DNA of 32,884 nucleotides. It comes from a virus. The translations under genes were made by a program, and so were the position numbers. Every line of letters starts with the position of its first letter. Positions within the stretch are counted from its first letter, which is position 1. The notes below the pieces were generated by a model. That model did no database searches. It was not told the DNA's origin and saw nothing but the letters and a program-made list of their open reading frames with translations. The stretch is from positions 1 through 32,884 of the IMG/VR virus record IMGVR_UViG_3300031997_000039. One strand, given 5' to 3'. Below, piece after piece: positions 1,495-22,543 of the stretch.

Positions 1495-1502
1495 TATTTA
1501 TA
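1495..1502 (+). promoter_or_regulatory. TATTTATA element upstream of the 1505 gene
   Basis: TATTTATA lies in the 25-base gap after the SWIM-like gene, two bases before the next ATG. Related elements precede four other genes in the same orientation. Read on the other strand it is TATAAATA, the T4 late-promoter -10 sequence, but that direction would run antisense into the upstream gene. Promoter function is inferred from recurrence only. Confidence 0.4.
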
Positions 1503-1504
1503 AT

Positions 1505-2041
1505 ATGAAACGTTATTGTTTTTATTGGAGTACACCAAACCACATTGCGTGGCCAAGGGCAGATTGGACGTGGGCAGATTGTGAACTAATTAATGAAATC
1601 TGTGCTAGATGGGGGACGGAAGGTGCTTGGTGGGTAGATGAAAAGATGAAGTGGTCGGAATGTTCGAGTTCCGCTCCACCGGCGATATGTGCTATATGGG
1701 GAACAACGAACGTTTGGTGGAAGAATGTAAATTGGTATTGGTCGCAATGTTCAGGTTCGATAACGCCTCCAACACCATCATTTACGGCATCTTTACAGCC
1801 ACCGGGCGTAGATGCTACGACTCTTGTTCAACCTTGGTTGATAACACCGTGGAATCCTTATACAGCGAATGATGAACATGATAAGAAAAGAAAACGACTT
1901 ATCAAATTGATTTGTAAAGTAAAAGGTGAAACATATGAAGAGGAAAAAATGGTAGGAACAATGAATATTTCAGTGGATGATATTAAAATGGTTGTTAAGG
2001 CAATCTCTAATATAGATTTAGATGTAAAATTTGAGGAATGA
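1505..2041 (+). CDS. Tryptophan-rich protein with a duplicated 22-residue Cys/Trp module
   Basis: 178 residues, family not recognised. Residues 32-53 and 61-82 are two copies of one module, I-C-A-x-W-G-T-x3-W-W-x6-W-S-x-C, each starting and ending with the same Cys/Trp spacing. A third, degenerate W/C stretch (W16-W23, C26) precedes them. The first 85 residues are therefore unusually rich in Trp and Cys. A Pro/Thr linker (86-120) leads to a charged C-terminal region (126-178) with a basic KKRKRLIKLI stretch. No signal peptide or membrane segment is evident. The gene lies directly upstream of the fibre block, so a virion or assembly role is possible but unproven. No Shine-Dalgarno sequence is obvious. 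Confidence 0.78.
   Translation: MKRYCFYWSTPNHIAWPRADWTWADCELINEICARWGTEGAWWVDEKMKWSECSSSAPPAICAIWGTTNVWWKNVNWYWSQCSGSITPPTPSFTASLQPPGVDATTLVQPWLITPWNPYTANDEHDKKRKRLIKLICKVKGETYEEEKMVGTMNISVDDIKMVVKAISNIDLDVKFEE
2033..2037 (+). promoter_or_regulatory. Shine-Dalgarno GAGGA deciding the 2043 start
   Basis: GAGGA sits five bases before ATG 2043 and overlaps the end of the preceding gene. It favours ATG 2043 over the in-frame TTG at 2031. Confidence 0.6.
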
Positions 2042-2042
2042 T

Positions 2043-2657
2043 ATGTCATATAAAATATACACAGACAAGAATGAGAATTTTGAATGTGAAGTATCTGTAA
2101 AGAATGCTTCGTTGAAAGGTTCTATTGCTCGTCTCATCGTAGAATCTTCCGATGGGCCGACTTTGGTATTTAAGGGTGAGTTAAATGGTGATAAATGTAC
2201 CATCCCCATCAAAAGATTAAAAGGCATATTGGATGAAAGTTCTCGTGGAAATATGCATTTGGAAGTCATAGTAGAAGATACCTATTTTAGACCTTGGGAA
2301 TCGGATTTTGTAGTCGAAGAACACACATCAGTAAAGGTCAGAGTGGATGAACAAAAACAGTCTTCTAACAAACCCATTGTAAAAATCAAAGTACCGGTTG
2401 TAAAAATTATTGAATCTAAAGCACCAGCAGTTAAAACATCAACAATCAAACCAAAAATAAAGAGGAAAGGCATTAATGTTTTCGTTCCGAAAAAAGAAAT
2501 CGCAACTATATGTGAACAGTTTGGTATTAGAAAGAATAACTTTCAAAAAAGGAAAGGGGACTTTCTTCAAATTTTAAAAGAATACTTTAAAGTGAATCCT
2601 GAATATAATTACCATACAAGAACGATTTTAAGCGGAATAGACGACTTCTTGAGATAA
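2043..2657 (+). CDS. Hypothetical protein: beta-rich N-terminus and basic C-terminus
   Basis: 204 residues from ATG 2043, chosen because of GAGGA five bases upstream; an in-frame TTG at 2031 is less likely. Residues 1-103 look like a compact beta domain, alternating hydrophobic and charged residues and ending in ...PWESDF... A Lys/Pro/Val linker follows (105-145). The last 60 residues are basic with Phe/Tyr. The linker contains I-I-E-S (122-125), which matches the [IL]-x-E-S pattern discussed for the cargo proteins, although this protein lacks the N-terminal leader. I do not recognise the family. Its position between the Trp-rich gene and the fibres suggests a late structural or assembly role, as inference only. 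Confidence 0.75.
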   Translation: MSYKIYTDKNENFECEVSVKNASLKGSIARLIVESSDGPTLVFKGELNGDKCTIPIKRLKGILDESSRGNMHLEVIVEDTYFRPWESDFVVEEHTSVKVRVDEQKQSSNKPIVKIKVPVVKIIESKAPAVKTSTIKPKIKRKGINVFVPKKEIATICEQFGIRKNNFQKRKGDFLQILKEYFKVNPEYNYHTRTILSGIDDFLR

Positions 2658-2676: not shown

Positions 2677-4479
2677 ATGCCACAATTTCCACAAAGAGAT
2701 TTAACAAATCAATACATATCGACAAGCTACCAAGATGTAGTTCAACGATATCTCTCTGGTTCTACAGATTATCTATTAGATGGTCTTGGATATGTAATTT
2801 TGGGTATTCCTACATCATCTGTAGGCAATCTAGTTTTAACTCAAGACCAGACTGCTAGTTGGGCATATAATTCCGTCAGTGCATCGTGGGCGCCACCAAT
2901 TCCAAGTAATTTTTCTGTAAGTTCTTCTTGGGCATCTGAATCGTTTTGGGCTACGTCAGCATCTTTTGCCAGTAAATCAATCTCATCTATATCATCATCG
3001 TGGGCATCTGAAAGTTTACATTCTAAAACCACAGACGTATCAATTTCTTCATCGTATGCTTTATATTCAGAATTATCGAATACAGCATCAATATCAATTT
3101 TATCGGAATTTTCTGACACGGCTTCTTTGGCTGGTCTGGCTCTAGTTGCTAGAGTCGCCACAAGCGCGTCGTGGGCATCTGCCTCATTTGTTGCCTCATC
3201 TGCATCGTTTGCCTCACAATCAATTAGTTCAAGTTTTGCTGTTAGTGCATCTTGGGCACCGGGTACAGGAAATTCGGTGTCTTCATCGTGGGCATCTGAA
3301 TCGTTTTGGGCTACGTCAGCATCTTTTGCTTCACAATCCATTTCTGCTAGTTTTGCTCAAACAGCTTTAAATGCTGATTCGGCATCTTATGTAAATCCAG
3401 CATCATTTGATAATTTAGTATTGGCATTTGAATTTAAATTCAGTACTAATACAACCTCAGGCGACCCCGGTAGTGGAAAATTTAGATACAATAATGCAGC
3501 GTCTCAATCTATAACCAACGTTTTTATTTCTGACACAACTAATAATGGATTGGATATTACTGGCATTGTTGACTCATTAAAAAGTGGAAGTTATCAACTT
3601 TATATTCAACAAAAATCGGATGCCACCAAGGCATCCATATTCCAAGTTAGTTCGGGTCTAACAGATAATGGTGCTTGGTTTACCGTTCCTGTCATTCATC
3701 TTTCATCTGCGCCGGGAGGATTACCTCTTAATAATCAAGTATGTACATTATTTGTTATTAATAAAAACTCCATTGTTGAGGGTGCCACTTATCCGGTAAC
3801 AGCTAGTTGGTCAATAAGTTCTAGCTGGGCTCCTGTACCAGAGAGTGCAAGTTGGTCAAGTGCTTCGTTGTTTGCAACATCAGCATCGTGGGCATCTAAA
3901 TCCATTAGTTCTTCATATTCACTTTCATCGTCTTTTGCTGATACGTGTTCTGTATTCATTTATAGTAACATTACTCAATCATTGACGTTTATTACGTCGG
4001 CTTCTTTTGCTAGTCAGTCGATTAGTGCAAGTTACGTTCCTAATTTATATCCACAAGTTGAACAAATCAGTTCTTCGTGGGCTAGTGCCTCCTTTGTGGC
4101 TACGTCAGCATCTTTTGCTTCACAATCCATTTCTGCTAGTTTAGCATTGACAGCTAGTAGTTTGGCAGGTTGGAATTTTAACAACACATCTTTATCTGTA
4201 GGAACTGGTTCAAATGTTGTGGTATCCATTTCTACAGGTTCATATATCGCAGCGTTTTTTGATTACGCTGTGACAAGTGGAAGTAATATACGAGCAGGAA
4301 CAATTTTCGGTTCGTGGGTAAATAGTTCAATAACATTTGCTGAAACAAGTAATACAGACATTGGAAATACTTCACAAGTAAGTATGTCTATATCACTGAC
4401 AGGAAGTTTACTCCAATTGATTGCTACCGTTTCAAGCACGATTCCTTGGAATATTAGAGCATTAGGTCGATACTTATAA
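2677..4479 (+). CDS. Tail-fibre protein with SASWA repeats (600 aa)
   Basis: A GGAG sequence lies 11 bases before the ATG. The N-terminal ~55 residues are non-repetitive and could be the attachment part. Two blocks of Ser-Ala-Ser-[WF]-Ala repeats follow (about residues 60-240 and 370-492). They flank a globular beta domain at about 245-370 that includes S-G-D-P-G-S-G-K-F and resembles domains seen in other phage fibre proteins. The last ~100 residues are a non-repetitive beta-rich tip ending ...IPWNIRALGRYL. Such repetitive shafts with globular inserts are typical of host-binding or whisker fibres. It heads a run of three fibre genes. The exact location on the virion is unknown. Confidence 0.8.
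   Translation: MPQFPQRDLTNQYISTSYQDVVQRYLSGSTDYLLDGLGYVILGIPTSSVGNLVLTQDQTASWAYNSVSASWAPPIPSNFSVSSSWASESFWATSASFASKSISSISSSWASESLHSKTTDVSISSSYALYSELSNTASISILSEFSDTASLAGLALVARVATSASWASASFVASSASFASQSISSSFAVSASWAPGTGNSVSSSWASESFWATSASFASQSISASFAQTALNADSASYVNPASFDNLVLAFEFKFSTNTTSGDPGSGKFRYNNAASQSITNVFISDTTNNGLDITGIVDSLKSGSYQLYIQQKSDATKASIFQVSSGLTDNGAWFTVPVIHLSSAPGGLPLNNQVCTLFVINKNSIVEGATYPVTASWSISSSWAPVPESASWSSASLFATSASWASKSISSSYSLSSSFADTCSVFIYSNITQSLTFITSASFASQSISASYVPNLYPQVEQISSSWASASFVATSASFASQSISASLALTASSLAGWNFNNTSLSVGTGSNVVVSISTGSYIAAFFDYAVTSGSNIRAGTIFGSWVNSSITFAETSNTDIGNTSQVSMSISLTGSLLQLIATVSSTIPWNIRALGRYL
2854..3399 (+). repeat. SASWA/SASFA coding repeats, block 1
   Basis: Degenerate repeats encoding Ser-x-Ser-[Trp/Phe]-Ala, often followed by Ser-x-Ser-[Ile/Phe]. 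The peptide is conserved, but Ser and Ala codons vary freely (TCA, TCT, TCG, AGT), so the DNA copies are less alike than the protein copies. Confidence 0.85.
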
Positions 4480-4514
4480 ACATAACAGACAGATAGAATC
4501 ATTACCGGATATTG

Positions 4515-4520
4515 AAGGGA
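4515..4520 (+). promoter_or_regulatory. Shine-Dalgarno AAGGGA of the 1567-aa fibre gene
   Basis: AAGGGA lies four bases upstream of ATG 4525, inside a 45-base gap after the previous fibre gene. I see no TATATTTAT element in the gap, which fits co-transcription with the upstream fibre. Confidence 0.5.
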
Positions 4521-4524
4521 TGAT

Positions 4525-7500
4525 ATGGCATACGAATTCATTATAAAAAATGGGCTGATTAGCCCCGGCTCCGCACAAATCACTGGCTCCTTAACGGTGC
4601 TCGGTGGTATTACTGGCGACCTTACAGGAACCGCTTCTTGGGCATCAAATGCTGTATCAGCTTCGTGGGCACCAGACCAAACTGTTAGTGTAAATAGTGC
4701 AAGTTGGGCTAGTTCATCTATTTCAGCCAGTTATTCCGAATTTGCTTTGAGTGCCAGTTGGGCACCACAACAACAAGACATATCTGTAAACAGTATCACC
4801 GCCTCATACATTTCTGCAAGTCATATTGAAACTGTTGACCCACTACACGAAGATGATGTAGCCACAAAGAGATATGTTGATAGTTTGACTCCGGCAGGAT
4901 TTGACTTTTATTTTCGTTCATCAAGTGCTGATATTGTTGGATATCATAATGCTTTGCCATTGACCACACCTGTTAGTTCATCACAAACAGATTTGATTGT
5001 ATTAAATGCTTCAGCATCACAATATATTTATGAGTTTATAACTCCAGCAATAAATGTTGTTTCATTAGCAAGAGGAACTACCAATTTTCACATTCACATG
5101 TATCGTGTGGGTGGTCATGCTGCTAACACTTTTCAGGTGGAAATGTATATTAGAAGTGCCAGTGTTGAAACTGAATATGTAGTTTCTTCTCCAATTACAC
5201 TTACCACAGATGTAAACGCAAACTACATTATTCCAGTTGTTTTGACAAGCAGTTTGGAAACCAACTTAACTGATAGAATAGTTGGAAAAATCAAAATTAT
5301 CAATGGAGCAAGTACTCCAAATGTCCATTGTTTAGTTGAAGGCACCACTGCTGCTGGTATTACTGTTCCTATTCCATCTTCCAACTTCGTATTGAAATCG
5401 GGAGATACGATGACTGGCGACCTTACTGTTCCAAATGTAATTGGAAATCTTATAGGAACAGCTTCGTGGGCATCAAATGCTGTATCAGCTTCATGGGCAC
5501 CTGACCAAACTGTTAGTGTAAATAGTGCAAGTTGGGCTTCGGCTTCAATTAGTTCATCATTTTCTACAACCGCTTCTTACACTAACGATTATCAAAGTAA
5601 AACCGCAACGAATTTTTATTTTCCGACGTGGTTCAATGGTAAATTAACTGACACAAGTGGTATTAGTGTAGAAAATGATATTTACCATTATATCAATGGT
5701 AATATTTATTCTCTATCTGATAAACCATCATTGACTGTAAATCAGGTTGATGTAAATAATGTCAACGTCATACGTTCTTTCGGTGACGCAAATGATTATG
5801 TTCAAACTGCCGTAAGAAATATCAACGCTGGTACCGCTGCTTCAAGTGATATGGTAGCAGAAGCTGATAATGCTTCGGAGAGTAGTAGTTATGTTGACGT
5901 GGGCATCAATTCGTCGGGATGGAATAGTGGTTCTAATGGAAACGACGAACAACCAAATGACTCTTACCTAATCAATCATGATGGTGATTTATGGATTGGT
6001 ACGGATGAATCGGGGTCAGGCTATGCTATTCGTATGGGTATTGGAAACCACGTTTATCCAAGCATGTCATTGGTTGTGGAAGAAGGTGGTGTCAGTGTTT
6101 CTGGTTCATTCTACGGAACGGCATCATATGCAAAAAATTCAGACCGTTCTATTAGTTCATCAAATGCAAATTCTGCCAGTTACATAATTCCGGGTGCTAC
6201 TTTATATGTGGTATCAAGTTCAACAAATCCATCATATATTGAACCCTACAACATTCCAACCGTTCCTTACAATCCTCCTTACAAGGAAGGTAGAATGTTT
6301 TATGACAAGGATTATTCTAACTGGGTTTATTACACGGACCAGAATTTCAAACTTCACATCGGTAAAGAAGTAATTTGGAGAGTTCACAACCCATTCACTT
6401 CGTCTTTGAACGCATTGACCGCGGTTTATCTATCAGGCTCAACTAATGGACAAGACCCGGATGTTTATCCAGCAATTTCTGACGGCACAGGAATTCGCAG
6501 TGAAGTAGTGGGAGTTATTAGACATGCAATTCCATCAGGTTCTACAGGATATGTTCTCCAAGTTGGTGTATCACATAATGTGAATATGACCGGATTTAAT
6601 ATTGGAGATAGAGTGTGGCTCTCTACAACGGTGCCGGGAGGATTTACCAATGTAGAGCCGGGACAGCCATATGAATCAGTTGAGATTGGTTACTGTCAAG
6701 TAGATGGTATAAATGGTTCACTTATAGTTCATACTGTAATAAATCCGTCGCCTCCAAATGCTTATGCTGGTATAACCTCCGATATTTTTGTCACCAATTT
6801 ACTAAATGGAACAGTCGGCGTTTCAACGGGTAGCGTCAATTTATTTGATGACGCTACTGGATATGGTCTTGTAAAAGGTTATCCACTATCAGCTACAACG
6901 TTATCATTGGTTACAGGTTCAACAAACTACATCGTTTCAGAAAGAACCGGAAGTATTAATGCCAAATACACTCTTACAACCGACCCATCTTACGCTACCG
7001 GTATTAATATTGTTCGTGTGGCTACCTTGGACATTTATCAAGAGACGACTTCATCGTGGGATGTTCAGATCTTTAATGTTGGTATTGTTGGTCTTGCTTT
7101 AGCAAATAGAACCGATAATAAAGACATTCTTCTTTACGGTTATCAGAGACAAAATGGTTTAACTTTATACACCACAGGTTCGGTAGGATATTTTGGTATT
7201 ACCGAAGGAACGGTTTGGTATGGACCAAATTCACACGTAGTTCCAACTTTTGATACCTACATACCGGGATATTACACATACATTTTCCACACATCAGGAA
7301 GTGGTTGGCACCAACACACATCAAGTATTTACTTGAATGGTGTTTATGATAGTGGAGCGGGAAGTTCATCATTGATAACCTGCGCTCCTAATTCTTGGTC
7401 GGTAAACTTTGTCTATCGTTTGATGGGCACGAATGATGAATCTGCTATTGTAATGAGTAATGCTCAATTCGCCACCGAATTAGAAGCCTCAAATAATGCT

Positions 7501-9228
7501 CAACCACCAGCAAATCTTCCATCAACCATTAGAGATGTTGGACTATTGGTTGGTAGATTTGTTGTCCAGAGTGGTTCATATAGTTCTGTGGTCATTGAGT
7601 CAGCATTTTCAAATATTTTCATTCCATCCGTAGTTACTGACCACGAAAGTTTGACGGGACTACAAGGTGGGCAAGGCGGAGAACACAGACACTTAACAGC
7701 AGCAGAATACACGGGCACGGGCACAGGTGTATTTATGAGAAATATCAAGCCTGTATTCGGCGGGGCAACTCCGGGTCATGTTCCTTACTGGAAGAATGAC
7801 CAGACATTGACTTTAACAGGCAGTGTTCAGGTTTACGGTGACCAGTATGTTTTGATTAACTCAGGTTCACCAAATCCAACAGACCCAGAAGCATTGTTGG
7901 TATATCAGAAAAATACATCATCGGTAAACACCATTGGTGCTTATTCAAATGTTAATAATTACTCACAGATTTACAATCAGAACTTGAGTAGTGGTTCTGA
8001 TGCCTCTACTGATTTTTGTGCTACGGCCGACGTTGGGACTCAAAACTCCAATTATCTTGATGTTGGTGTTGCTAATAGTGGATATGCTAGTGTCTCTTGG
8101 CCTTGGTTAAAACCATTAGACGGATACGTTGAAGTAGATGGTGGAGATATGTGGTTGGGATTACTTGGTGACAAAAAACTCCTATTTACATTCAACAATA
8201 CGGCCAGCACAAATTATGCTGATAAGACAGGTTTCTATCTTTCTGGTTCATTCTTTGGAACTGCTAGTAATGCTAGAAACTCAATTGTTTCAGTTTCTTC
8301 ATCATTTGCAAGTAGGTCATTTACTGCCACAAGCGCATCGTGGGCATCAGAATCGTTCTGGGCCACAAGTTCCTCTTTTGCAAGTGAGTCATTTGTTGCC
8401 ACGTCGGCTTCATTTGCTTCACAATCTATTAGTGCTAGTTACGCACCATTTACTCAGACAGAACAGATTAGTGCAAGTTGGGCTTCATCGTCGTTTGTTG
8501 CCACGTCGGCTTCATTTGCTTCAAGGTCAATCAGTGCTTCATACGCACCACAAGTTGAACAAATAAGTGCATCATGGGCTTCTGCTTCATTCGTTGCCAC
8601 GTCTGCATCATTTGCCAGTCAGTCAATAAGTGCCTCTTGGGCACCAGTGCCGGTGAGTGCTTCGTGGGCTTCTGCTTCATTTGTCGCCACATCGGCGTCA
8701 TTCGCTAGCAGGTCTATTTCTGCAAGTTTTGCACCACAAGTTGAACAAATTAGTGCAAGTTGGTCGAGTGCTTCGTTTGTAGCTACGAGTGCTTCGTTTG
8801 CCTCAAGTTCTTTTGTATCGGTAAGTTCATCATTTGCCAGTAGGTCATTTACCGCAACGAGTGCTTCGTGGGCCTCTGAGTCATTCTGGGCTACCTCAGC
8901 TTCGTTTGCATCAAATTCAATTAGTTCATCATTCACTACAACTGCTAGTTTTGCTGTCACGGCTAGTTTTGCTTTGGGTATGCCTTCGATTAAATCGGGT
9001 ATTGCCTCAGGTTCAGCGTTTGCTGGTAGTCCAAAAACAATTACGATTACATTCACAAAAGCTTTCCCTGACAATAATTATAGCGTGACGGTGACGGGTG
9101 AAAGTTCAAGAACTTATACAATTCAATCCAAAGTAAGTGGAAGCTTTGTAATCAATGCTAACAATAATACAGCGTTTACTAACTTTGTATTTTGGCAGGC
9201 AATAACTGGTGGAGAGTTCTACTCATAA
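4525..9228 (+). CDS. Giant tail-fibre protein (1567 aa) with duplicated beta domains
   Basis: A strong AAGGGA precedes the ATG. The N-terminus (M-A-Y-E-F-I-I-K-N-G-L) leads into a short SASWA segment. A globular domain around residues 426-480, with the pattern N-x-G-x-A-A-S-S-D...Y-V-D-V-G-I-N-S-S-G, recurs in diverged form around 1148-1190 (G-S-D-A-S-T-D...Y-L-D-V-G-V-A-N-S-G). Near residue 1052 there is G-G-E-H-R-H-L-T-A-A-E-Y, a histidine-containing motif common in phage fibres. A long SASWA/SASFA shaft covers about 1256-1490. The C-terminal ~80 residues form a beta-rich tip with F-P-D-N-N-Y-S-V-T-V and a final F-W-Q-A-I. It is probably an adhesive fibre; the receptor is unknown. Only three bases separate it from the next fibre gene. 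Confidence 0.85.
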   Translation: MAYEFIIKNGLISPGSAQITGSLTVLGGITGDLTGTASWASNAVSASWAPDQTVSVNSASWASSSISASYSEFALSASWAPQQQDISVNSITASYISASHIETVDPLHEDDVATKRYVDSLTPAGFDFYFRSSSADIVGYHNALPLTTPVSSSQTDLIVLNASASQYIYEFITPAINVVSLARGTTNFHIHMYRVGGHAANTFQVEMYIRSASVETEYVVSSPITLTTDVNANYIIPVVLTSSLETNLTDRIVGKIKIINGASTPNVHCLVEGTTAAGITVPIPSSNFVLKSGDTMTGDLTVPNVIGNLIGTASWASNAVSASWAPDQTVSVNSASWASASISSSFSTTASYTNDYQSKTATNFYFPTWFNGKLTDTSGISVENDIYHYINGNIYSLSDKPSLTVNQVDVNNVNVIRSFGDANDYVQTAVRNINAGTAASSDMVAEADNASESSSYVDVGINSSGWNSGSNGNDEQPNDSYLINHDGDLWIGTDESGSGYAIRMGIGNHVYPSMSLVVEEGGVSVSGSFYGTASYAKNSDRSISSSNANSASYIIPGATLYVVSSSTNPSYIEPYNIPTVPYNPPYKEGRMFYDKDYSNWVYYTDQNFKLHIGKEVIWRVHNPFTSSLNALTAVYLSGSTNGQDPDVYPAISDGTGIRSEVVGVIRHAIPSGSTGYVLQVGVSHNVNMTGFNIGDRVWLSTTVPGGFTNVEPGQPYESVEIGYCQVDGINGSLIVHTVINPSPPNAYAGITSDIFVTNLLNGTVGVSTGSVNLFDDATGYGLVKGYPLSATTLSLVTGSTNYIVSERTGSINAKYTLTTDPSYATGINIVRVATLDIYQETTSSWDVQIFNVGIVGLALANRTDNKDILLYGYQRQNGLTLYTTGSVGYFGITEGTVWYGPNSHVVPTFDTYIPGYYTYIFHTSGSGWHQHTSSIYLNGVYDSGAGSSSLITCAPNSWSVNFVYRLMGTNDESAIVMSNAQFATELEASNNAQPPANLPSTIRDVGLLVGRFVVQSGSYSSVVIESAFSNIFIPSVVTDHESLTGLQGGQGGEHRHLTAAEYTGTGTGVFMRNIKPVFGGATPGHVPYWKNDQTLTLTGSVQVYGDQYVLINSGSPNPTDPEALLVYQKNTSSVNTIGAYSNVNNYSQIYNQNLSSGSDASTDFCATADVGTQNSNYLDVGVANSGYASVSWPWLKPLDGYVEVDGGDMWLGLLGDKKLLFTFNNTASTNYADKTGFYLSGSFFGTASNARNSIVSVSSSFASRSFTATSASWASESFWATSSSFASESFVATSASFASQSISASYAPFTQTEQISASWASSSFVATSASFASRSISASYAPQVEQISASWASASFVATSASFASQSISASWAPVPVSASWASASFVATSASFASRSISASFAPQVEQISASWSSASFVATSASFASSSFVSVSSSFASRSFTATSASWASESFWATSASFASNSISSSFTTTASFAVTASFALGMPSIKSGIASGSAFAGSPKTITITFTKAFPDNNYSVTVTGESSRTYTIQSKVSGSFVINANNNTAFTNFVFWQAITGGEFYS
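4627..4710 (+). repeat. Direct DNA repeat, copy A
   Basis: This 84-base stretch encodes GTASWASNAV...SASWA and recurs 828 bases downstream at 5455-5538 with only a few, mostly synonymous, differences. It is a recent duplication compared with the other repeats in the gene. Confidence 0.8.
5455..5538 (+). repeat. Direct DNA repeat, copy B
   Basis: Second copy of the 84-base unit at 4627-4710. Both copies follow a similar G-D-L-T segment, so the duplicated unit may include flanking sequence that has since diverged. Confidence 0.8.
8290..8990 (+). repeat. SASWA/SASFA coding repeats, long C-terminal shaft
   Basis: A near-continuous run of Ser/Ala-rich repeats with a higher-order unit of about 20-25 residues (SASWA-SASFVAT-SASFASQSIS-ASYAP). 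It is separated in places by a short Q-V-E-Q-I spacer that itself recurs. Confidence 0.85.
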
Positions 9229-9231
9229 TTT

Positions 9232-12200
9232 ATGGCAGACGAAATCTTTTTAGTTAATTCGAGCAGCTTCCAAGATGTGGAAGTATCCGCATCATTGCGT
9301 GCTGGGCCGGGAATCATTGTTGATTTTACACAAGCAACAAGAGTTACAGGCTCATTTGTTGGCGACGGAAGACAATTAACACAAATTTCAGCATCATTTA
9401 TTATTGCTGGTAGTAACACAACATCCAGCCAAGCAATCTCATCAAGTTTTGCTATATCGGCTTCTTGGGCACCTGACCAGACGGTAACAGTAAATAGTGC
9501 TTCGTGGTCATCGGCGTCATTTGTGGCGACAAGTGCTTCATTTGCTTCACAATCAATTAGTGCAAGCTATGCTCTCACAGCTTCATCAGCCGTAAACGCT
9601 TTCTTGGCAACATCTGCCACATCTGCTACTTCGGCAACATCCGCATCTTGGTCATCTGCTTCATTTGTTGCTACATCAGCGTCGTTCTCAAGTGCATCAT
9701 TTGTTTCTTTGAGTTCATCGTTTGCCTCTGCGTCAATTTCATCAAGTTATTCATTAACGGCTTCGTCAGCAGTTAATGCTTTCTTGGCAACGACAGCAAC
9801 TACAGCCACCACTGCAACATCAGCATCTTGGTCATCTGCTTCTTTTGTAGCTACCAGTGCTTCATTTGCTTCTCAATCAATTAGTGCAAGTTATGCTCTC
9901 ACAGCTACAACTGCCGCATCTGTTACATCGGCTTCTTGGGCAAGCGCATCGTTTGTAGCAACAAGCGCATCATTTGCTTCACAGTCAATAAGTGCAAGTT
10001 ATGCTCTAACTGCTTCATCGGCTGTAAATGCTTTCTTGGCAACCACGGCGACAACGGCTACGGCTGCAACTTCTGCTTCTTGGTCAAGTGCATCTTTTGT
10101 GGCTACGAGTGCCTCATTTGCCAGTCAGTCAATTTCAGCCTCATGGGCGCCACCAATCCCAAGTGATTACGCTGTATCATCGTCTTGGGCATCAGAATCA
10201 TTTTGGGCTACCTCAGCATCGTTCGCTAGTCGTTCAATCAGTGCAACTTCTGCTTCGTTTGCCAGTGCGTCGTTTGTTGCCACGTCTGCTTCATTTGCTT
10301 CCACTTCATTTGTAGCTGTATCTGCCTCATTTGCTAGTGCTTCTTTTGTTGCAACTTCTGCTTCGTTTGCCAGTGCTTCATTTTTCACTACAAGTGGTTC
10401 ATGGTCCTCTGCTTCATTCGTAGCTTTGAGCGCATCATTTGCAAGTTCATCACACAGTTCTTCATTGGCAGCTTTGATGAATGTAAGTTCGAGTATAACC
10501 GATGATAGAAATTATCCTTTGGTATTTACTATCAATTCAGGAAGTCAAAATCTAATCATAGATGATGGTCAGTTGGTCTATAATCCAAGTATCAACAGAT
10601 TATTAACTTCAACATTAAGTGCCTCAACATTTACAGGTCCCGTAAGAACAGGTCTAAACGTAAGAACGTTTGGTGCTACAGGCGATGGAACTACTGATGA
10701 TACTGCTGCTATTCAGAGGGCGTTGTCTGCTTCTTGGACTTCTGGTGTCGGCAACAGAGGCGTGGATTTGTTCTTTCCGGGTGGTGTTTATCTAACAACT
10801 GCTCCAATTTCATGTTCCGGTAACAACGTATTTTTGGTTGGTGCTGGTGTAGGTGGGACGGCTCTTTATCCACAACACGTTACGGGTGATGTTCTACAAT
10901 TTGGTAGTATTGCTATCAGTGTTGCTTCCGTGGGTGTGATGAATATGTCATTGATTTGTCCTACCACAAGAAGTTCTGGTGCGACAATTAATCTAACCAA
11001 TGCTGATGATGTTCTCATTCAGAACTTCAATATTACAAATTACTTTGAAGGTATTAGAGTTACAGGTTCCAGTATTAAGGTAAAAATTGATAACGGAGTT
11101 TTGAGTTCTGGATACAGACAAACAGGTGTTGGTATTCTTGTTAACAACGGATTAGCGGGAGATACTTACATCACTGACGTTGTAACGTCAAATCCAGTTA
11201 CAGCTATTCCATTGGCGGGTATTCAATTAATTCAAACCGGCCATACATCCATTCTCAGAAATAACATAACATCGGCCCAGTATGGATTGTATATGAATCC
11301 ATCATCTTCACAGGATGTTACTTATGTGTTCTGTGACCACACTTTGTTTGACTCTTGTATATCAAATTCTCTCTTTATCAATCCTGTCGCATCAGGTAGC
11401 GCAAGAGTTCGTAGTGGTGTGTTTGTCAATTCTTGGTTTGCTGGAACTTTGTCAGGTTCAGGTATAACCATTTCTGGTGATGCCAATGCTGGTGGTATTA
11501 ATAGTCCAATCATTGATGATTACAAATTCATCGGTTGTAGAGTATTGAATAACTACCGTCAGGGTGTTTACATTTCTAACAGTGGTTCTACAGGAAACAT
11601 TGGTTTTCACGATTGTACAATTGCTGGTAACTCACAACAAAGTTCCAGCCAATGGAGTGCCTTCGAAATTGACAAAAATGTGACCGGTAGTATAATGCTT
11701 ACAGGCAACAGAATTGGTCAAGCCGGCACGGCAACCAATACTCAAAGACATGCCATTCTTGTTCCAGATTCATCAGGTAGCATGAACCTTAAAGTTGCTC
11801 ACAACAATTTATCGGCGAACGTCATTCCTCCATTCATTAACTTTGGTGTAATGACCGGCAGCGTAATTATATCTGATAATATAGGTGATGAATCATCAGG
11901 CGTCTCAGTTAGATCACTACCTACAACGGGGTCGGCAACGTCAGGTGCAAGTGAAGTGTTGTTGTTCAATTATCGTGTACCAGCCAACTCTGTTAGGGTC
12001 GGTCAATACTATCGTATCAGAGTAATTGGCTTCTCTTCATCCACCGGTACATTGATTTTCCGTGTTCGTGTTGGTGCTAACGGAACAACCGCTGACAATC
12101 AAGCTTGGATTAATACAACAAGTGCGGCTCAGGTAGCTAATGCAAGGGCTGGATTTGATGGTCTATTATATGTAAGAGCTATCGGTGCGTCGGGATTAGT

Positions 12201-12366
12201 TTGCGCAGAAGCACAAGCCCATGCTGGTGCTTTGGGATTGGGAACTCTTGTTGCCGCACCAACTACTGCCGCTGTAGTTACAACCGCTAACTGGTTTATT
12301 AATGTATCTGCTACATGTTCAGTCGGAACATACACAATTCTAGCAGCAGCAATTGATGCTCTATAA
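9232..12366 (+). CDS. Tailspike-like fibre: SASWA shaft plus pectate-lyase-type beta-helix
   Basis: 1044 residues, starting three bases after the previous stop and without a clear Shine-Dalgarno sequence. Residues 74-420 are SASWA/SASFA repeats with sub-blocks of A-T-S/A-T-T triplets. At about 476 the motif V-R-T-F-G-A-T-G-D-G-T-T-D-D-T-A-A-I-Q begins, a hallmark of the Pectate_lyase_3 beta-helix family. About 400 residues of right-handed beta-helix-like repeats follow (N-x-x-I, G-I-x-V, Asn-rich turns). A separate C-terminal beta domain (about 900-1044) is rich in Ala/Thr/Val. Such proteins bind, and often cut, surface polysaccharides. I cannot assign catalytic residues, so depolymerase activity is inference. 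Its end converges with the minus-strand block after only eight bases. Confidence 0.85.
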   Translation: MADEIFLVNSSSFQDVEVSASLRAGPGIIVDFTQATRVTGSFVGDGRQLTQISASFIIAGSNTTSSQAISSSFAISASWAPDQTVTVNSASWSSASFVATSASFASQSISASYALTASSAVNAFLATSATSATSATSASWSSASFVATSASFSSASFVSLSSSFASASISSSYSLTASSAVNAFLATTATTATTATSASWSSASFVATSASFASQSISASYALTATTAASVTSASWASASFVATSASFASQSISASYALTASSAVNAFLATTATTATAATSASWSSASFVATSASFASQSISASWAPPIPSDYAVSSSWASESFWATSASFASRSISATSASFASASFVATSASFASTSFVAVSASFASASFVATSASFASASFFTTSGSWSSASFVALSASFASSSHSSSLAALMNVSSSITDDRNYPLVFTINSGSQNLIIDDGQLVYNPSINRLLTSTLSASTFTGPVRTGLNVRTFGATGDGTTDDTAAIQRALSASWTSGVGNRGVDLFFPGGVYLTTAPISCSGNNVFLVGAGVGGTALYPQHVTGDVLQFGSIAISVASVGVMNMSLICPTTRSSGATINLTNADDVLIQNFNITNYFEGIRVTGSSIKVKIDNGVLSSGYRQTGVGILVNNGLAGDTYITDVVTSNPVTAIPLAGIQLIQTGHTSILRNNITSAQYGLYMNPSSSQDVTYVFCDHTLFDSCISNSLFINPVASGSARVRSGVFVNSWFAGTLSGSGITISGDANAGGINSPIIDDYKFIGCRVLNNYRQGVYISNSGSTGNIGFHDCTIAGNSQQSSSQWSAFEIDKNVTGSIMLTGNRIGQAGTATNTQRHAILVPDSSGSMNLKVAHNNLSANVIPPFINFGVMTGSVIISDNIGDESSGVSVRSLPTTGSATSGASEVLLFNYRVPANSVRVGQYYRIRVIGFSSSTGTLIFRVRVGANGTTADNQAWINTTSAAQVANARAGFDGLLYVRAIGASGLVCAEAQAHAGALGLGTLVAAPTTAAVVTTANWFINVSATCSVGTYTILAAAIDAL
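9430..10490 (+). repeat. SASWA repeats with A-T-S/A-T-T sub-repeats
   Basis: Three related copies of a unit encoding S-Q-S-I-S-A-S-Y-A-L-T-A begin near 9544, 9868 and 9976. Two of these continue into V-N-A-F-L-A-T and runs of A-T-S or A-T-T. The copies differ mainly at third codon positions. Confidence 0.8.
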
Positions 12367-12374
12367 GAAGTGAG

Positions 12375-13298
12375 TTATTTGAAAGGAATTTCAGTAACCG
12401 TTCCACTTAGAGGAATTGTATTTGGAAGTGGTTCCCAGTTTTCAATTTTATTGGAATCTACAGGTTTGCCGCCGTCGGCAGTATTTACTGATAATGTGAT
12501 ATGAGCAACTTCGTTGGTTGTCCAATACCCTCTTACTTTTACAGCGACAGCTTTATCAGACTTACCAAACTCGTAAGCGGTTAATTGAACTTTCTTACCA
12601 ATATCTTGTTTTTTATCTTGTGGAAGTTCGCCCATTTTAATAGTCATGTGATGGGCAAATTCTTTCCAATTTGAATCCATTTTATCCTTGAAAAATTCTA
12701 AAAGCTTCTTTTGGTCAACATCATCTAAAACTACAGCAGAATAACTAACTTTTTTGTATGGCATGGATTCTTGAAGTCTTGGTGTAAAATTCACTGGGTC
12801 TGCCAAAGATGATGTTTCTTGTTCGCCACAGTCGGCCAGATGCGCTTTAAGCTTTGCATCCTTCAAAGACTCACGAAAGGCTTGTTTCCACGTTATAGGG
12901 ACAGGATTACCCGCTTCATTGATATCTGGATTGTTATGGATTTTCTTTGCTGCAGTCATCCACGTTCTAGCCACTTTATTTGTGTGTTTACGGACTCTTT
13001 CCTTGTAAGACTCATTGGTATCGTTGGGTTTACGAAGATTATGCGTCTTTATTTTAATCCAAATCTTGTGGGGTTTATCATCTTCGTTGATATAAACCGT
13101 GGCGCCAGAACGTTTAGTTTGCCAATCATTACCTTCCATGTAACAAAACCAGTCTTTACCCTCAACAATACCATCCCAATTTGGTGAATCATCATTCCAT
13201 CCTCCGGGCATAGGACGGAGTTTGGAGTCAGGATTACCATTGACCGCCGGGCCGTGACTAATCCACTCATTGATTTTGATTAAGGTCTTTAATTTCAT
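12375..13298 (-). CDS. 2H phosphoesterase-like protein with leader and extra N-terminal domain
   Basis: 307 residues. The leader MKLKTLIKINE ends in I-N-E (9-11). Residues 12-170 form an unrecognised domain rich in Trp, Asp and Lys. From about 182 to the end the protein carries two H-x-T motifs, H217-M-T219-I and H266-I-T268-L, 49 residues apart, each at the end of a predicted strand. That is the signature of the 2H phosphoesterase superfamily, which acts on 2',3'-cyclic phosphates or cyclic oligonucleotides. The domains are joined at L175-Q-E-S178, a match to the prohead-protease pattern, so the enzyme may be released by cleavage. It is the last gene of the minus-strand block and has its own upstream TATTTATA. 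Confidence 0.75.
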   Translation of the reverse strand: MKLKTLIKINEWISHGPAVNGNPDSKLRPMPGGWNDDSPNWDGIVEGKDWFCYMEGNDWQTKRSGATVYINEDDKPHKIWIKIKTHNLRKPNDTNESYKERVRKHTNKVARTWMTAAKKIHNNPDINEAGNPVPITWKQAFRESLKDAKLKAHLADCGEQETSSLADPVNFTPRLQESMPYKKVSYSAVVLDDVDQKKLLEFFKDKMDSNWKEFAHHMTIKMGELPQDKKQDIGKKVQLTAYEFGKSDKAVAVKVRGYWTTNEVAHITLSVNTADGGKPVDSNKIENWEPLPNTIPLSGTVTEIPFK

Positions 13299-13319: not shown

Positions 13320-13733
13320 TTATTCTACGAAGTCCTTTATTTCTGTTATTGCTGATGCTGGGATTGTTCCTTTGTAGATATATGATTTTGGTAACTCTTC
13401 ATCTTCTACTGCCGACATATTAACATGTGGGTCTTTATCAAGATTTGATGTATCAAATTTTCCTGTGTCAATAACACAAATTACTACTTCATCCAACCAT
13501 TCATCTGGAATATCTTCATTTTCTGTTCCCGCTTGAACCATACTTCCCGCAAAAGATTCATTATCGCTTAAATACACTCCCCACTCCGCACCATCAAAAT
13601 TTCTAATAGTAGTTCCATGAGGAATAAGACCGTGTTTTTGGATGCTAGGAACCAGAGCGTTAAACGTTGCATGATACAAAACAGGCGGTATCGGTTCATT
13701 AAACGATTCAATAATTTCTTTAAGTTTTATCAT
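13320..13733 (-). CDS. ADP-ribosyltransferase/KptA-fold protein with leader
   Basis: 137 residues. The leader MIKLKEIIE ends in I-I-E (7-9) and is followed by S-F. The body matches the ART superfamily outline: L-Y-H21-A-T near the start, a helix with H-G-L-I-P (34-38), G-V-Y54-L-S, and a C-terminal Y-I-Y-K-G-T-I-P segment (118-125). H21 and Y54 would be the first two residues of the H-Y-x triad used by KptA/Tpt1 RNA 2'-phosphotransferases and diphtheria-type ADP-ribosyltransferases; the third residue is unclear. Known members transfer ADP-ribose from NAD+ to protein or RNA. T4 packages an ADP-ribosyltransferase (Alt) in its head, which makes the leader meaningful. The substrate cannot be read from sequence. 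The gene overlaps its upstream neighbour by 14 bases. Confidence 0.65.
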   Translation of the reverse strand: MIKLKEIIESFNEPIPPVLYHATFNALVPSIQKHGLIPHGTTIRNFDGAEWGVYLSDNESFAGSMVQAGTENEDIPDEWLDEVVICVIDTGKFDTSNLDKDPHVNMSAVEDEELPKSYIYKGTIPASAITEIKDFVE

Positions 13734-14148
13734 ATTCAGGTTTAAATTCTGATTTATCTATCATCTCATGGTCTTCTGGACTCCACTTTGGAACTCTCTT
13801 AAACATACTACCAGTAAATATCAATACAGGAACTTTTTCAATACCAAGTTTTTTGGCAACGGTTGCTCGGTGTCTTCCTTCGTGACCAGTAACTTTCTTT
13901 TTTGCCACATCAACCGTCAATACTAAAAAATCAAGAGGAAGACCATTTCTCATTCTATGTTCCAAATTTTTCATGGATTCATCATCATTTTCACTGTCAG
14001 GAAGAGGATGGACTAGACTTAAAAATTTATCAGGAGTCATCCACACAACCTTTCCTTTCCAACCTTCATTACCACCATAGGATTGAAGGTCTTCTTTTCC
14101 AGCAAGAGGATATTCTATTTCTTTAAGTAATGACTTTAATTTAATCAT
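13720..14148 (-). CDS. ParB/Srx-like domain protein with leader
   Basis: 142 residues from ATG 14148. This start overlaps the previous stop as ATGA and gives the leader MIKLKSLLKE, ending L-K-E at 8-10. An upstream in-frame start at 14175 would bury the leader and is rejected. The core contains V-x-W-M-T-P-D-K-F (34-42), then T-G88-H-E-G-R-H-R94-A-T-V-A-K-K-L-G-I-E-K-V-P-V. This is the characteristic (D/H)-G-x-H-R-x-x-A-x-x-x-L-G-x-x-x-V-P-V element of ParB/sulfiredoxin-fold proteins. That fold includes nucleases, NTP-binding proteins and sulfiredoxins. No DNA-binding helix-turn-helix follows, so a partition role is unlikely. I infer a small packaged effector. Confidence 0.65.
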   Translation of the reverse strand: MIKLKSLLKEIEYPLAGKEDLQSYGGNEGWKGKVVWMTPDKFLSLVHPLPDSENDDESMKNLEHRMRNGLPLDFLVLTVDVAKKKVTGHEGRHRATVAKKLGIEKVPVLIFTGSMFKRVPKWSPEDHEMIDKSEFKPEYDKT

Positions 14149-14894
14149 GACGTGGATTTTTTTACTTTTGACCAAAGTTCTTTAGATTTAGGGTCGCTTG
14201 GGGATAATGGTTGTTTTTCTTTTTCGGCTCTAAGCATTCCTAATTCCTGTTGAATCTGTTGTTGTCTAGCTGTGCCTGTACCCGTAGAGTCCAATCTATC
14301 CCACTCTTGTTCAAGTCGTGCAATTTTACCATCTATGTCGTGATGGATATTACCTTCGGTCAAATCAAAATATGATTTACCACCACTAATAGGTGAATAA
14401 CACAACCGCTTAATAGGAACATTTAATCTCAACCCTTCTTTAAGACGATTGAATTTTCCTTTTTTAACATAAGCCAAAGTAAGATGTGGAATATAATCAG
14501 GATAATCACTTTCATTCAGATGGGCTCCTGATAATTCGTTTAATTTTTTCAATACAGGACTGTTTACTTTAAATACAGCCACATCATAACTTGGATGTGG
14601 TGCAAATTTATCCAACCCAAAAATTTCCATCATGAATGGTTTTTGTCCTTGAATCAATTGACGTATATCAAGTTCATTCAAATCTTTTAAAAATCCATAA
14701 CGAATAGTAACATGAGATTCCATTTCTCTACCATATTCATTACCTTCAAGATACAGGTCTTCATCGTTAATCAATTGTTTACTGAATTTAAGAATTTTGG
14801 CCGTATCTTCTTCTGATAACATGGCCATCAAACACCCCTTACGTGCCGATACGTCTCTATTTTCAGTCAACATTTTTTTTAAGTTAATCATCAT
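14145..14894 (-). CDS. 2H phosphoesterase-like protein with leader and coiled-coil tail
   Basis: 249 residues from 14894. A second ATG at 14891 gives a leader aligning exactly with the others, MINLKKMLTE, ending L-T-E; either start overlaps the upstream stop. Two H-x-T motifs, E-S-H61-V-T63-I and P-H137-L-T139-L (numbered from 14894), lie 76 residues apart with the usual alternating strands, so the 2H phosphoesterase assignment is good. After residue ~185 comes a charged, Gln-rich, probably coiled-coil tail with no family match. Known 2H enzymes open 2',3'-cyclic phosphates on RNA ends or, as in phage Acb1, destroy cyclic oligonucleotide signals. Which applies here is not decidable by eye. 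It is only distantly similar to the other 2H protein at 12375-13298. Confidence 0.75.
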   Translation of the reverse strand: MMINLKKMLTENRDVSARKGCLMAMLSEEDTAKILKFSKQLINDEDLYLEGNEYGREMESHVTIRYGFLKDLNELDIRQLIQGQKPFMMEIFGLDKFAPHPSYDVAVFKVNSPVLKKLNELSGAHLNESDYPDYIPHLTLAYVKKGKFNRLKEGLRLNVPIKRLCYSPISGGKSYFDLTEGNIHHDIDGKIARLEQEWDRLDSTGTGTARQQQIQQELGMLRAEKEKQPLSPSDPKSKELWSKVKKSTS

Positions 14895-16153
14895 ATTCCT
14901 CTGAATGGTTCGTTTCTTATAAATACTTCCATAGCATAGTCACCCTTCGCTTTCTTACCAGATATAATTTGTTCGTAATTCTTCAAAAACTCACTAGCTT
15001 TCATGGTTTCTCTTGGAGACGCCGACCATTTAATGACTATCCAGAAGTCGCCATAGTTCTCTATTACCCATTTTACTCTACCATTCTTAATATCTTCACC
15101 ACGAATCCATTGACTGTATTCTGGTGGGCCAGCGCCAAATGGTTTCGGTTGGTTTTCTGGCTTTTGCATTTCTTTCTTGAAATCATCTATTACAGTGCCC
15201 AATTTATCCAAGAACGCCTTATTCTCAGGAGTATTGGTATCAACCACCTTCAATTTCAAGGCCTGAGTATAAGGAAGGCCTAGTTTTTTCAACTGTTCTG
15301 CTAACGCAGCATATATCTGTTCTGCGTTTGTGCTAGCTGGCCCCAAATGAACCGTTCCACCTACACCAATCTTTTTGCCATGATAGTCTGCATAATGGTC
15401 GGGTGGAGAGTTGATATCATAGTTGTATTTGACAATCCCATCCCTTACAAACTTAAAAACTCTGACACGATACTCACCCTTTGGTGTTTGTATCCTCATT
15501 ACTGTGTCTCCTTTATCAAACTCAATATTTTCTCTTAGAAACACCTTACCAACTACTTCATCAATGTTACCCCAATCATTGCCTCCATAATGTTCAATCC
15601 AAATTTCTTCTGGATTCAATTTTTTGATGACTTTGATTTTATTCAAGTCCAAAAGTGGTTCATCATCATGAATACCCAAATCTTCCAACGATTGACCTTG
15701 TATCAAATAAATGGGTCTTCCTTTTTTATCAAAAAAGTCTCCTATCAAACTATCCAAAGTATTCAATCCTATATCACTTAACTGACTTGTATCCAATTCC
15801 CACATACCACGTTTAGTATTCCACTTCACAGGATACGCACTTATTCCTTTTTCAAATCCACCGGTTACATGATTTGAAGATTTACCACTTTTTGGAATGT
15901 CGCCAAATCGAACATAGTAATGGTCGGCTTGAAATTTTGCCTTGTAAGCTTCTGGATGTGGTGGCTTGTATCTATTGAAATTACGCAAAGCCTTAACAAC
16001 TTTACCCCACCGTGGGTCTTTATCCCACAGATATTGAAGTTTCTCACCCCTATCTTTACCGGGCGCATTATCTATTAAATTATCGAGCCATTTTTGGATA
16101 TTTTTCTCTCTATCCTCTAAACTCTCAAATAGTATGTTTATTAGTTTATCCAT
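14891..16153 (-). CDS. Unknown 420-aa protein with candidate leader
   Basis: The N-terminus MDKLINILFE ends in L-F-E (8-10) followed by S, fitting the leader pattern although the usual Ile-x-Leu-Lys is changed. The protein is rich in Lys, Asp, Trp and Tyr. It has an aromatic N-terminal helical region (15-60) and a middle part (about 185-275) that looks beta-rich. The C-terminal region repeats short stretches such as W-V-I-E-N-Y-G-D-F-W-I-V-I-K-W. No catalytic motif, signal peptide or membrane segment is evident, and I do not recognise the family. It overlaps the upstream polyprotein gene by eight bases and the downstream 2H gene by four, so it is firmly part of the block. Confidence 0.72.
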   Translation of the reverse strand: MDKLINILFESLEDREKNIQKWLDNLIDNAPGKDRGEKLQYLWDKDPRWGKVVKALRNFNRYKPPHPEAYKAKFQADHYYVRFGDIPKSGKSSNHVTGGFEKGISAYPVKWNTKRGMWELDTSQLSDIGLNTLDSLIGDFFDKKGRPIYLIQGQSLEDLGIHDDEPLLDLNKIKVIKKLNPEEIWIEHYGGNDWGNIDEVVGKVFLRENIEFDKGDTVMRIQTPKGEYRVRVFKFVRDGIVKYNYDINSPPDHYADYHGKKIGVGGTVHLGPASTNAEQIYAALAEQLKKLGLPYTQALKLKVVDTNTPENKAFLDKLGTVIDDFKKEMQKPENQPKPFGAGPPEYSQWIRGEDIKNGRVKWVIENYGDFWIVIKWSASPRETMKASEFLKNYEQIISGKKAKGDYAMEVFIRNEPFRGI

Positions 16154-19907: not shown

Positions 19908-20300
19908 TTACTTCTTGGCTTCTTTTTCTTTTTTCTGTTTTATCATGATGGATTTTACCATTTTTGCCCAGTTCTTATGATTTTCATGACAATACCTCAG
20001 TGATAAAAAATCTATGAAGTTTCCTTTTGAACCACTAACCCTCCAATCATTAAGTGCGTGTGATATCGTATTTAGACAAATTTTTCTAGCGTCGGCTTCA
20101 TCTGCCGTTTGAATTCCTGACTTTTTCAAAGATATTCCGTATGGAAACCTTGTTTTCTTACCGCCTTCTGCCACATAAATAGCATCGGCAATAGCATTTG
20201 TGTTGACGGAAGGAACTTGTTGTATTATAGCCGGCGGTGCAGGAGGTATCGGAGGTAATGCTTCCATAATTTCATTTATAATTCTTTTAAGGCTAATCAT
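19908..20300 (-). CDS. Lysozyme-like (putative muramidase) protein with leader
   Basis: 130 residues from ATG 20300, which gives the leader MISLKRIINE ending I-N-E (8-10). Upstream in-frame starts to 20324 would bury it. A Pro-rich linker (15-30) is followed by a domain with I-Y-V-A-E45-G-G, F-P-Y-G-I (52-56), A-R-K-I-C-L-N-T-I (71-79), N-F-I-D-F-L-S-L-R-Y-C (94-104) and N-x-x-W-A-K-M-V. I recall this arrangement from small lysozyme-fold phage proteins, where the Glu in A-E-G would be catalytic; this is from memory, not a search. It would cut peptidoglycan, and packaging in the head would suit DNA entry better than lysis. It ends one base before the next start and is the first gene of the minus-strand block. 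Confidence 0.6.
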   Translation of the reverse strand: MISLKRIINEIMEALPPIPPAPPAIIQQVPSVNTNAIADAIYVAEGGKKTRFPYGISLKKSGIQTADEADARKICLNTISHALNDWRVSGSKGNFIDFLSLRYCHENHKNWAKMVKSIMIKQKKEKEAKK

Positions 20301-20304
20301 GGAC

Positions 20305-20313
20305 ATAAATATA
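20305..20313 (-). promoter_or_regulatory. TATATTTAT element, minus strand, divergent region
   Basis: The minus strand reads TATATTTAT four bases before ATG 20300. It pairs with an outward-facing copy at 20335-20343 on the plus strand. The plus strand here reads CATAAATA (20304-20311), close to the T4 late consensus, so the element could instead drive gene 13. Confidence 0.45.
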
Positions 20314-20334
20314 AGCATAAACACTATCAGTTTC

Positions 20335-22069: not shown

Positions 22070-22543
22070 ATGGGAAAACTAGGAAGATATTTTTCAGATA
22101 GGGATGTAAAGTTCATCAACTCCATAAATGCAGAGTTGATGGGCGATATCATTCAAACAGAAGTCTTTATCTATAAGATTTGTGCAGACCAAACCAGAAT
22201 CAATATTTATGGTGAATCAGACCCAAAATCTGGTAAAGTATTTTATCCCGGAGTTGAATGCACCTGTCTTATTGACCGCGCTGATATTGATACTAACTTT
22301 GATGAATTTGGTCCAGACAGAAATCAAACTGTTGTATTCAAATTTAGAGAAGATAACTTGAAACTTGTCAATTTGTATCCGGAGGTTGGTGATATCGTAG
22401 AATTTAATAAACGATATCATGAGATTGATAATGTAGTTCAAGAACAATTTCTTGGAGGTATTTCTGATAAATCTCTTTCAATAATTGTAAACACTCATTA
22501 CGCAAGATTGAGTAAATTGAGTCTTGTAGAAAGACAAGTATGA
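22070..22543 (+). CDS. gp14: Neck protein, gp14-like
   Basis: 157 residues from ATG 22070; longer in-frame starts back to 22001 overlap the upstream gene and add no conserved sequence. The outline follows T4 gp14 in shorter form. I-N-A-E-L-M-G-D-I-I-Q-T-E-V-F-I-Y-K-I (19-37) parallels the gp14 segment with I-L-A-D...E...Y-Y. N-L-Y-P-E-V-G-D-I-V-E-F...Y-H-E-I-D (101-120) parallels its G-D-L-I-Y-F-P...F-E-I-N. This is similarity from memory, not an alignment. gp14 partners gp13 in the neck. It is about 100 residues shorter than T4 gp14. The stop overlaps the next start (ATGA). Confidence 0.65.
   Translation: MGKLGRYFSDRDVKFINSINAELMGDIIQTEVFIYKICADQTRINIYGESDPKSGKVFYPGVECTCLIDRADIDTNFDEFGPDRNQTVVFKFREDNLKLVNLYPEVGDIVEFNKRYHEIDNVVQEQFLGGISDKSLSIIVNTHYARLSKLSLVERQV

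Follow-up and report, generated by a model that had tools for sequence, protein, structure and literature searches.

A repeated tryptophan/cysteine module in a small phage protein that is probably an accessory of fibre mounting

The gene at positions 1505-2041 of the virus record IMGVR_UViG_3300031997_000039, here termed W, encodes a small protein with a tandemly repeated tryptophan/cysteine module and is followed by a gene termed c1 and by a fibre-like gene. The membership of W in this three-gene cassette is well supported. In the related viruses examined, W almost always stands immediately ahead of a possible fibre-collar gene and a fibre gene, which points to a role in fibre mounting: W is most likely an accessory of a fibre-mounting collar in T4-type phages and probably assists in attaching the host-contacting fibres. 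To the fuller reading, in which W, c1 and the fibre gene constitute a cassette for mounting fibres in T4-type phages and W, encoded first, acts as an adaptor or assembly factor, we assign a probability of about 50%. The window analysed is the entire virus record of 32,884 bases, and the features of the cassette are as follows.

1495-1502, plus strand: TATTTATA, possible element of late-promoter type, two bases upstream of the W start codon
1505-2041, plus strand: W gene, Trp/Cys repeat protein of 178 aa (open reading frame and relatives)
1517-1582, plus strand: unit 1, residues 5-26, absent from the initial annotation
1601-1663, plus strand: unit 2, residues 33-53
1688-1750, plus strand: unit 3, residues 62-82
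1799-1861, plus strand: linker PPGVDATTL..PW..PWNPY, residues 99-119, conserved inside the cysteine branch (alignments)
1871-2038, plus strand: C-terminal core, residues 123-178, KRKRLIKLICKVKG..., conserved family-wide (alignment; AlphaFold2 block means 72-89 over residues 121-178)
2043-2657, plus strand: c1 gene, 204 aa, with a beta (Ig-like) domain at the N-terminus (1-96), then a linker and C-terminal helices
2677-4479, plus strand: fibre-like gene with SASWA-type repeats, after c1 in the cassette
2698-2739, plus strand: fibre N-terminal motif DLTNQYISTSYQDV, proposed anchoring segment

Residues 32-53 of W (ICARWGTEGAWWVDEKMKWSEC) and 61-82 (ICAIWGTTNVWWKNVNWYWSQC) are identical in 11/22 residues and 44/66 bases. 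The best ungapped self-match of the whole protein scored 91 at a period of 29, against a shuffle maximum of 59 (0/2000 as high), and residues 1-86 alone scored 86 against 65 (0/2000 as high). The tandem duplication described in the initial annotation is thus real. Both of the 22-residue copies counted there exist, but the correct count is three, as an N-terminal copy at residues 5-26 (CFYWSTPNHIAWPRADWTWADC) with one extra residue between Trp 1 and Trp 2 had been overlooked. Likewise, the elements I-C-A-x-W-G-T, W-W and W-S-x-C listed there belong to a real module, but the unit is better given as C-x2-W-x6-W-x6-W-x2-C, which is symmetrical about the middle Trp; unit 1 of the window has x7 in the first gap. 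The three units form the N-terminal part of the protein, and the most conserved part is the core of about 55 residues at the C-terminus.

Relatives were collected from IMG/VR, and the loci are given L-numbers. A DNA pattern for the unit matched nine stretches, one of which (L005) encoded a relative 50% identical to the window protein; the early matches L002-L004 were rejected as chance after translation. Stepwise alignments yielded 7, 17 and 56 loci in partly overlapping sets. The resulting alignment A6 holds 43 members of the W family and omits the truncated L021, L042-L044 (copies of L041), re-found loci, LR756502.1 and 12 near-identical loci (L070, L072, L076, L079, L083, L089, L091-L093, L095, L099 and L100). 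The C-terminal core was common to all 43 members, and W65, W79, R131, L135, C137 and D159 (window numbering) were invariant.

The cysteine-bracketed unit was found in 18 of the 43 members (n = 32 units, 31 of them 21 residues long), a count that alone cannot prove pairing because the unit pattern requires both cysteines. The cysteine lists of these 18 proteins contained two cysteines per unit and one in the core, with one or two extra in L040, L047, L020, L048 and L068, and by eye no unpaired Trp triplet was present among them. The other 25 members had a single Trp triplet and no cysteine pair. Twelve of these had the spacing x6 and x6 with an aromatic residue in the second place, in 11 the second gap spanned 13-21 residues, and L077 and L087 were not matched by the triplet pattern; the second cysteine occurred alone in four (L081, L084, L090 and L096) and the first alone in none, again by eye. 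The Trp triplet is therefore general across the family, with a single gain or loss of the cysteine pair. Two candidate explanations of the repeat were rejected. A coiled coil with heptad Trp spacing was considered, and a continuous helix is unlikely because of the variable distance between Trp 2 and Trp 3 (13-21 residues in 11/25 members lacking the cysteine pair) and the frequent Pro, Asn and Gly. Thrombospondin-like repeats, which have the form W-x-x-W-x-x-C, obtained no supporting Pfam match.

The number of units in relatives, which the initial annotation had proposed to check, ranged from one to three. Three units were present in the window, L015, L016, L018 and L055, two in L017, L039, L040, L019 and, by eye, the truncated L021, and one in nine members. 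In a midpoint-rooted c1 tree of 41 rows, which excludes L040 (partial) and L068, the 16 carriers of cysteine units were located on one side of a single branch supported at 100/100 (0 of 500 label shuffles as low), a split at which, according to a warning of the tool, long branches meet between both sides. The tree grouped the window (three units), L017 (two) and L041 (one) with support of 98/94, so units are gained or lost quickly. A 30-codon tandem duplication in L115, with 86/90 bases identical and the first cysteine missing from the second copy, is recent. The divergent W protein at L123 3541-3993 displayed two Trp-triplet-like runs and no cysteine-bracketed unit, which suggests that units were duplicated outside the cysteine branch too.

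The W family is undescribed in the libraries searched. The earlier statement that no matching family was known held up: nothing significant was found in Pfam, NCBIfam, PHROGs or PDB sequences, and no known repeat family turned up. For the window protein the nearest hit in Pfam, NCBIfam and PHROGs was phrog_4331 at E 0.2, and the W proteins of the window, L024 and L020 had no match in NCBIfam. With all 43 members, the best Pfam value was E 0.0026 (DUF7123; 5/43 members matching at E up to 1) and the best PHROG value, among the matches listed (25 of 41 families), was E 0.012, no PHROG being matched by more than 3/43; none of these was significant, nor were the best hits of family profiles to PDB sequences (E 1.9 and 0.51). 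None of 41 stretches from prokaryote genome contigs retrieved with W alignment A4 held a confirmed relative. Translated searches of a collection of 50,697 phage records with six W-family proteins or c1 recovered only LR756502.1, from one uncultured huge phage. Among the four records LR756502.1, LR756508.1, Microcystis phage Mel-JY01 and Flavobacterium phage immuto, c1 was found in LR756502.1, and Mel-JY01 contained a weak, broken c1 match (E 0.006) with four internal stop codons; profile searches gave no W match in Mel-JY01, immuto or LR756508.1, which had been found via the neck gene. In titles and abstracts of the open-access literature, no paper was recognised as describing the Trp/Cys repeat or the W-c1-fibre cassette.

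Structure prediction, also proposed in the initial annotation, succeeded for one part of W and not for the other. The AlphaFold2 model of the window protein (43 sequences) had a mean pLDDT of 57.6; the C-terminal core was confident (block means 72-89 over residues 121-178) and mostly helical, but the repeat region was not (42-61 over residues 1-90). The nine PDB matches of the model all had E of 6 or more, its best Z in VIA was 3.3, which is not significant, and its best BFVD match was A0A218ML67 (E 0.054, not significant). This uncharacterized 95-aa protein of an uncultured virus, 28% identical to W, is possibly an unannotated relative, judging from the predicted structure.

The gene order was determined in a first set of 50 loci, comprising the window, 48 IMG/VR loci and LR756502.1. 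A c1 gene, of about 190 residues in the family, followed W in 46/50 by clustering and also in L068 on re-inspection; the sequences of L070 and L103 stop just after W, and L021 is without c1. In the 46 loci the gap between W and c1 was -11 to +36 bases, with the exceptions L074 (149) and L097 (296), and the two frames overlapped in 18/46 when the first start codon of each c1 frame was taken. The fibre motif was detected in 40/50 by pattern and in three more by eye (L047, L020 and L066); L040, L070, L080 and L103 reach the locus end without a further gene, and the motif was absent from L021, L084 and LR756502.1. The gene before W varied among loci, which indicates that W, c1 and the fibre gene travel together. 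In L021 7989-8327 the W frame ends after the linker (KKR) while another frame continues with a different protein and no c1 after it, which may reflect recombination or a chimeric assembly.

An independent test employed loci retrieved with the c1 alignment A8 alone. Relatives of c1 were present in 345/407 candidate stretches, which makes the cassette common in uncultured phages. The best 80 of these 345 were analysed, so that more distant c1 genes may stand without W; the 80 overlap the earlier loci and include near-copies, with 61 distinct W sequences. A W gene was located upstream of c1 in 80/80, with exactly one W profile match per locus, the weakest being those of L123 (E 0.0013) and L127-L129 (E 2.7e-5), and in a few of the 80 the gap was larger, up to 647 bases (L182). 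Three of the 80 loci were too short for the fibre-motif test. In the 77 with room, the motif followed c1 in 68 by the fixed pattern and in 73 with those added by eye (L119, L123, L144, L165 and L182); pattern search and inspection of the stretch revealed none after c1 in the near-identical L127-L129 and in L142. The pattern had no other match in 1,152,400 six-frame residues of these loci.

In 15/20 cysteine-branch rows by our own count, in which L021 and L043, a copy of L041, are included, TATTTATA occurred no more than about 25 bases ahead of the W start, and TATTTATT occurred there in four more. TATTTATA was not enriched window-wide (4 observed, 3.07 expected). This element may be a variant late promoter that opens the cassette with an almost leaderless start.

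Insertions were noticed at several loci. In L015, a 21-codon 5′ fragment of a W gene (1866-1928), which agrees with the intact start in 40/63 bases, precedes a GIY-YIG/NUMOD3 homing endonuclease gene at 1948-2622 and the intact W gene at 2619, as if the endonuclease gene had inserted into or beside W. Between c1 and the fibre gene, GIY-YIG endonuclease genes were detected in L020 (8898-9569), L047 (8904-9752) and L064 (6885-7757), so the cassette seems to be a repeated target of homing endonucleases. At the equivalent position L016 has a 160-aa open reading frame (9100-9582) with no Pfam match.

The c1 protein was predicted with more confidence than W. The AlphaFold2 model (41 sequences) had a mean pLDDT of 78.6. 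Residues 1-96 were confidently modelled as a beta domain (block means 88-93 over residues 1-90), followed by a linker scoring below 50 and by C-terminal helices. Foldseek matches of the domain were mostly antibodies. When VIA examined the top 1000 Foldseek chains, six of the seven best rows were phage connector, baseplate or tail-tip chains: 9mt4_H (Bas63 connector, Z 8.8), 8zdo_a (Douge baseplate, Z 8.8, aligned over chain residues 9-108), 8hqz_Q (DT57C tail tip, 7.9), 7qg9_J (T5 tail tip, 7.8), 9m8o_Q (NF5, 7.0) and 6v8i_AN (80alpha, 6.6). A BCAP domain was third in the list (8.1), and PD-1 (6.4) and antibody chains (at most 6.2) were also matched. The Ig fold is very common and a Z near 8 can reflect a common arrangement; the predicted c1 domain thus resembles phage collar and baseplate chains within a common fold. 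From the chain length of 139 rather than the chain label, we take 8hqz_Q to be LtfC and 7qg9_J to be p132; 8zdo_a is presumably Douge BppU with its ring domain, from the length of 311 and the aligned range 9-108, again not from the label.

These chains belong to known fibre-mounting or ring-forming devices. DT57C LtfC is described as a 12-mer collar that takes beta-strands from the N-termini of LtfA (PMC10713586), and T5 p132 as an Ig-fold collar that anchors the fibre (PMC10038345). The predicted Ig-like domain of c1 resembles, within a common fold, the chains taken to be these two proteins (Z 7.9 and 7.8), and beside the c1 gene lies a fibre gene with a conserved N-terminus (motif in 73/77 loci with room). 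The c1 phages differ in having a T4-type head module instead of being T5-like siphophages, in the extra helical C-terminal part of c1, and in the third gene, W, for which the parts of PMC10038345 and PMC10713586 considered here mention no equivalent in T5 or DT57C. The label T4-type was chosen because of PHROG matches to a head maturation protease, major head protein and PhoH in L088 and to head-tail adaptor Ad2 in the window, together with the weaker matches of the neck gene in phage records, which were T4-like neck proteins. No sequence link of c1 to collar proteins of the T5 family was found, tblastn against the 50,697 phage records having matched only LR756502.1 at E up to 0.01; c1 is therefore not classed as a member of that family, only as possibly working like one. 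The N-terminal fold of c1 is also like the ring-forming baseplate domain of BppU (Douge, and phage TP901-1 as cited in PMC10038345), of which residues 1-100 in Douge are described as a 12-mer ring (PMC13033339). The Douge protein differs by a carbohydrate-binding module in the same chain (PMC13033339), whereas here the fibre and W are separate genes. By analogy, a collar role of c1 is plausible.

A mechanism may be depicted as follows: The Ig-like domain of c1 would build a collar, in which the fibre would be held via its conserved N-terminal strands, as LtfC and p132 do with the lateral fibre in DT57C and T5. W would serve as a structural adaptor or assembly factor that attaches to c1, to the N-terminus of the fibre or to both; its contacts would be made by the conserved core at the C-terminus and by the Trp triplet, the latter being the constant contact element. 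In the branch of the window, the cysteine pair could form a disulfide once the protein has left the cell and so close each triplet into a loop of about 21 residues, and further copies of the unit would multiply the contact surface. Disulfide cross-links of the kind proposed for W have a precedent in myophage structural proteins, in the disulfide-rich collar of Agrobacterium phage Milano; that collar differs in bearing no fibres (PMC10491603). The three genes may accordingly work like part of a known device with W as a constant partner. A stronger version, in which W is a new class of adaptor and an obligate partner of a T5-like collar in T4-type phages, with a disulfide-locked palindromic Trp triplet in one to three copies whose number tunes fibre grip or sticking to the host, is put forward as a tentative suggestion.

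The strongest rival, which we regard as possible though not probable, is that c1 or the fibre is assembled with W as its dedicated chaperone, a protein that would be produced inside the infected cell but would not be part of the virion. The small size of W, the overlap of its frame with c1 in 18/46 loci and the mostly helical core model agree with such a role. So does a weak match of L088 residues 28-97 to the tail assembly chaperones of Phage_TAC_15 (PF21822; E 0.0062, 17.5 bits), a family matched by 2/43 members at E up to 1, but this score is under the curated gathering cut-off of 22 bits, the W protein of the window had no match to PF21822, and W occurs in a fibre cassette. The conserved cysteine pairs and the one to three modules look, we infer, more like a part outside the reducing cytoplasm.

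A site of the cassette on the head, as a head fibre or decoration, instead of on the tail is rather unlikely; it would be compatible with W as an adaptor. In 9/50 loci (L074, L075 and L103; L077, L086, L087, L088, L091 and L102) the gene immediately preceding W fell in a major-head-protein or PhoH cluster. In the remaining loci, however, W followed other genes, so the site cannot be read from gene position, and the analogues of c1 with solved structures come from the baseplate, tail tip or connector.

We consider it unlikely that the Trp/Cys units, held on the virion by the core domain, form an adhesive surface for host glycans. Dense Trp and the fast change of unit number (three, two and one in the window, L017 and L041; the duplication in L115) fit host-driven selection, and the ring and other exposed domains of Douge BppU are described as binding host glycans (PMC13033339). 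However, in the 43-member alignment two Trp never vary and the third hardly does, a constancy that most receptor-binding surfaces do not show, and no similarity to carbohydrate-binding modules was found in Pfam, for the window protein or the 43 members, or in the PDB-sequence profile searches. Binding of a metal such as zinc by the unit cysteines, one of the functions initially suggested, is very improbable: the paired cysteines do flank a compact motif, but there are two conserved cysteines per unit, 20 residues apart in 31/32 units, and of the nine single-unit members five have just these two and the core cysteine that is also present in members lacking the pair, while four have one more inside the unit, so that, counting cysteines alone, four close ligands are not provided by three or four cysteines in all, one of them in the core.

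If the preferred reading of W as part of a fibre-mounting cassette is true, it identifies the genes for fibre mounting in a large group of environmental T4-type phages, offers three adjacent genes for co-expression and imaging, and supplies a small module whose copies can be counted and set against the host.

Elsewhere in the window, 8/23 selected open reading frames of 90 aa or more begin with a leader like MIKLKxLLxE (loose pattern).

12375-13298, 13320-13733, 13720-14148, 14145-14894, 16146-18116 and 19908-20318, minus strand: open reading frames with the MIKLKxLLxE leader
22540-22899 and 22896-23279, plus strand: open reading frames with the MIKLKxLLxE leader

The leader was also detected in L019 (4/15), L020 (1/16), L022 (3/19), L023 (6/19) and L045 (5/22). 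It resembles the capsid-targeting leaders of T4, which are cut by the head protease, and the proteins that carry it may be packaged in the head. The gene upstream of W (613-1479) had a partial SWIM zinc-finger match of 17.0 bits, under the cut-off of 19.6, and its weak relatives came from a single Vibrio phage and a single Achromobacter phage (two records). The gene at 18113-19906 on the minus strand resembles, by eye, a tRNA nucleotidyltransferase/poly(A) polymerase with an HD domain. Very long fibre-like proteins of SASWASxSFxATSASFASQSISASxA repeats are located at 2677-12366 and 24316-30588.
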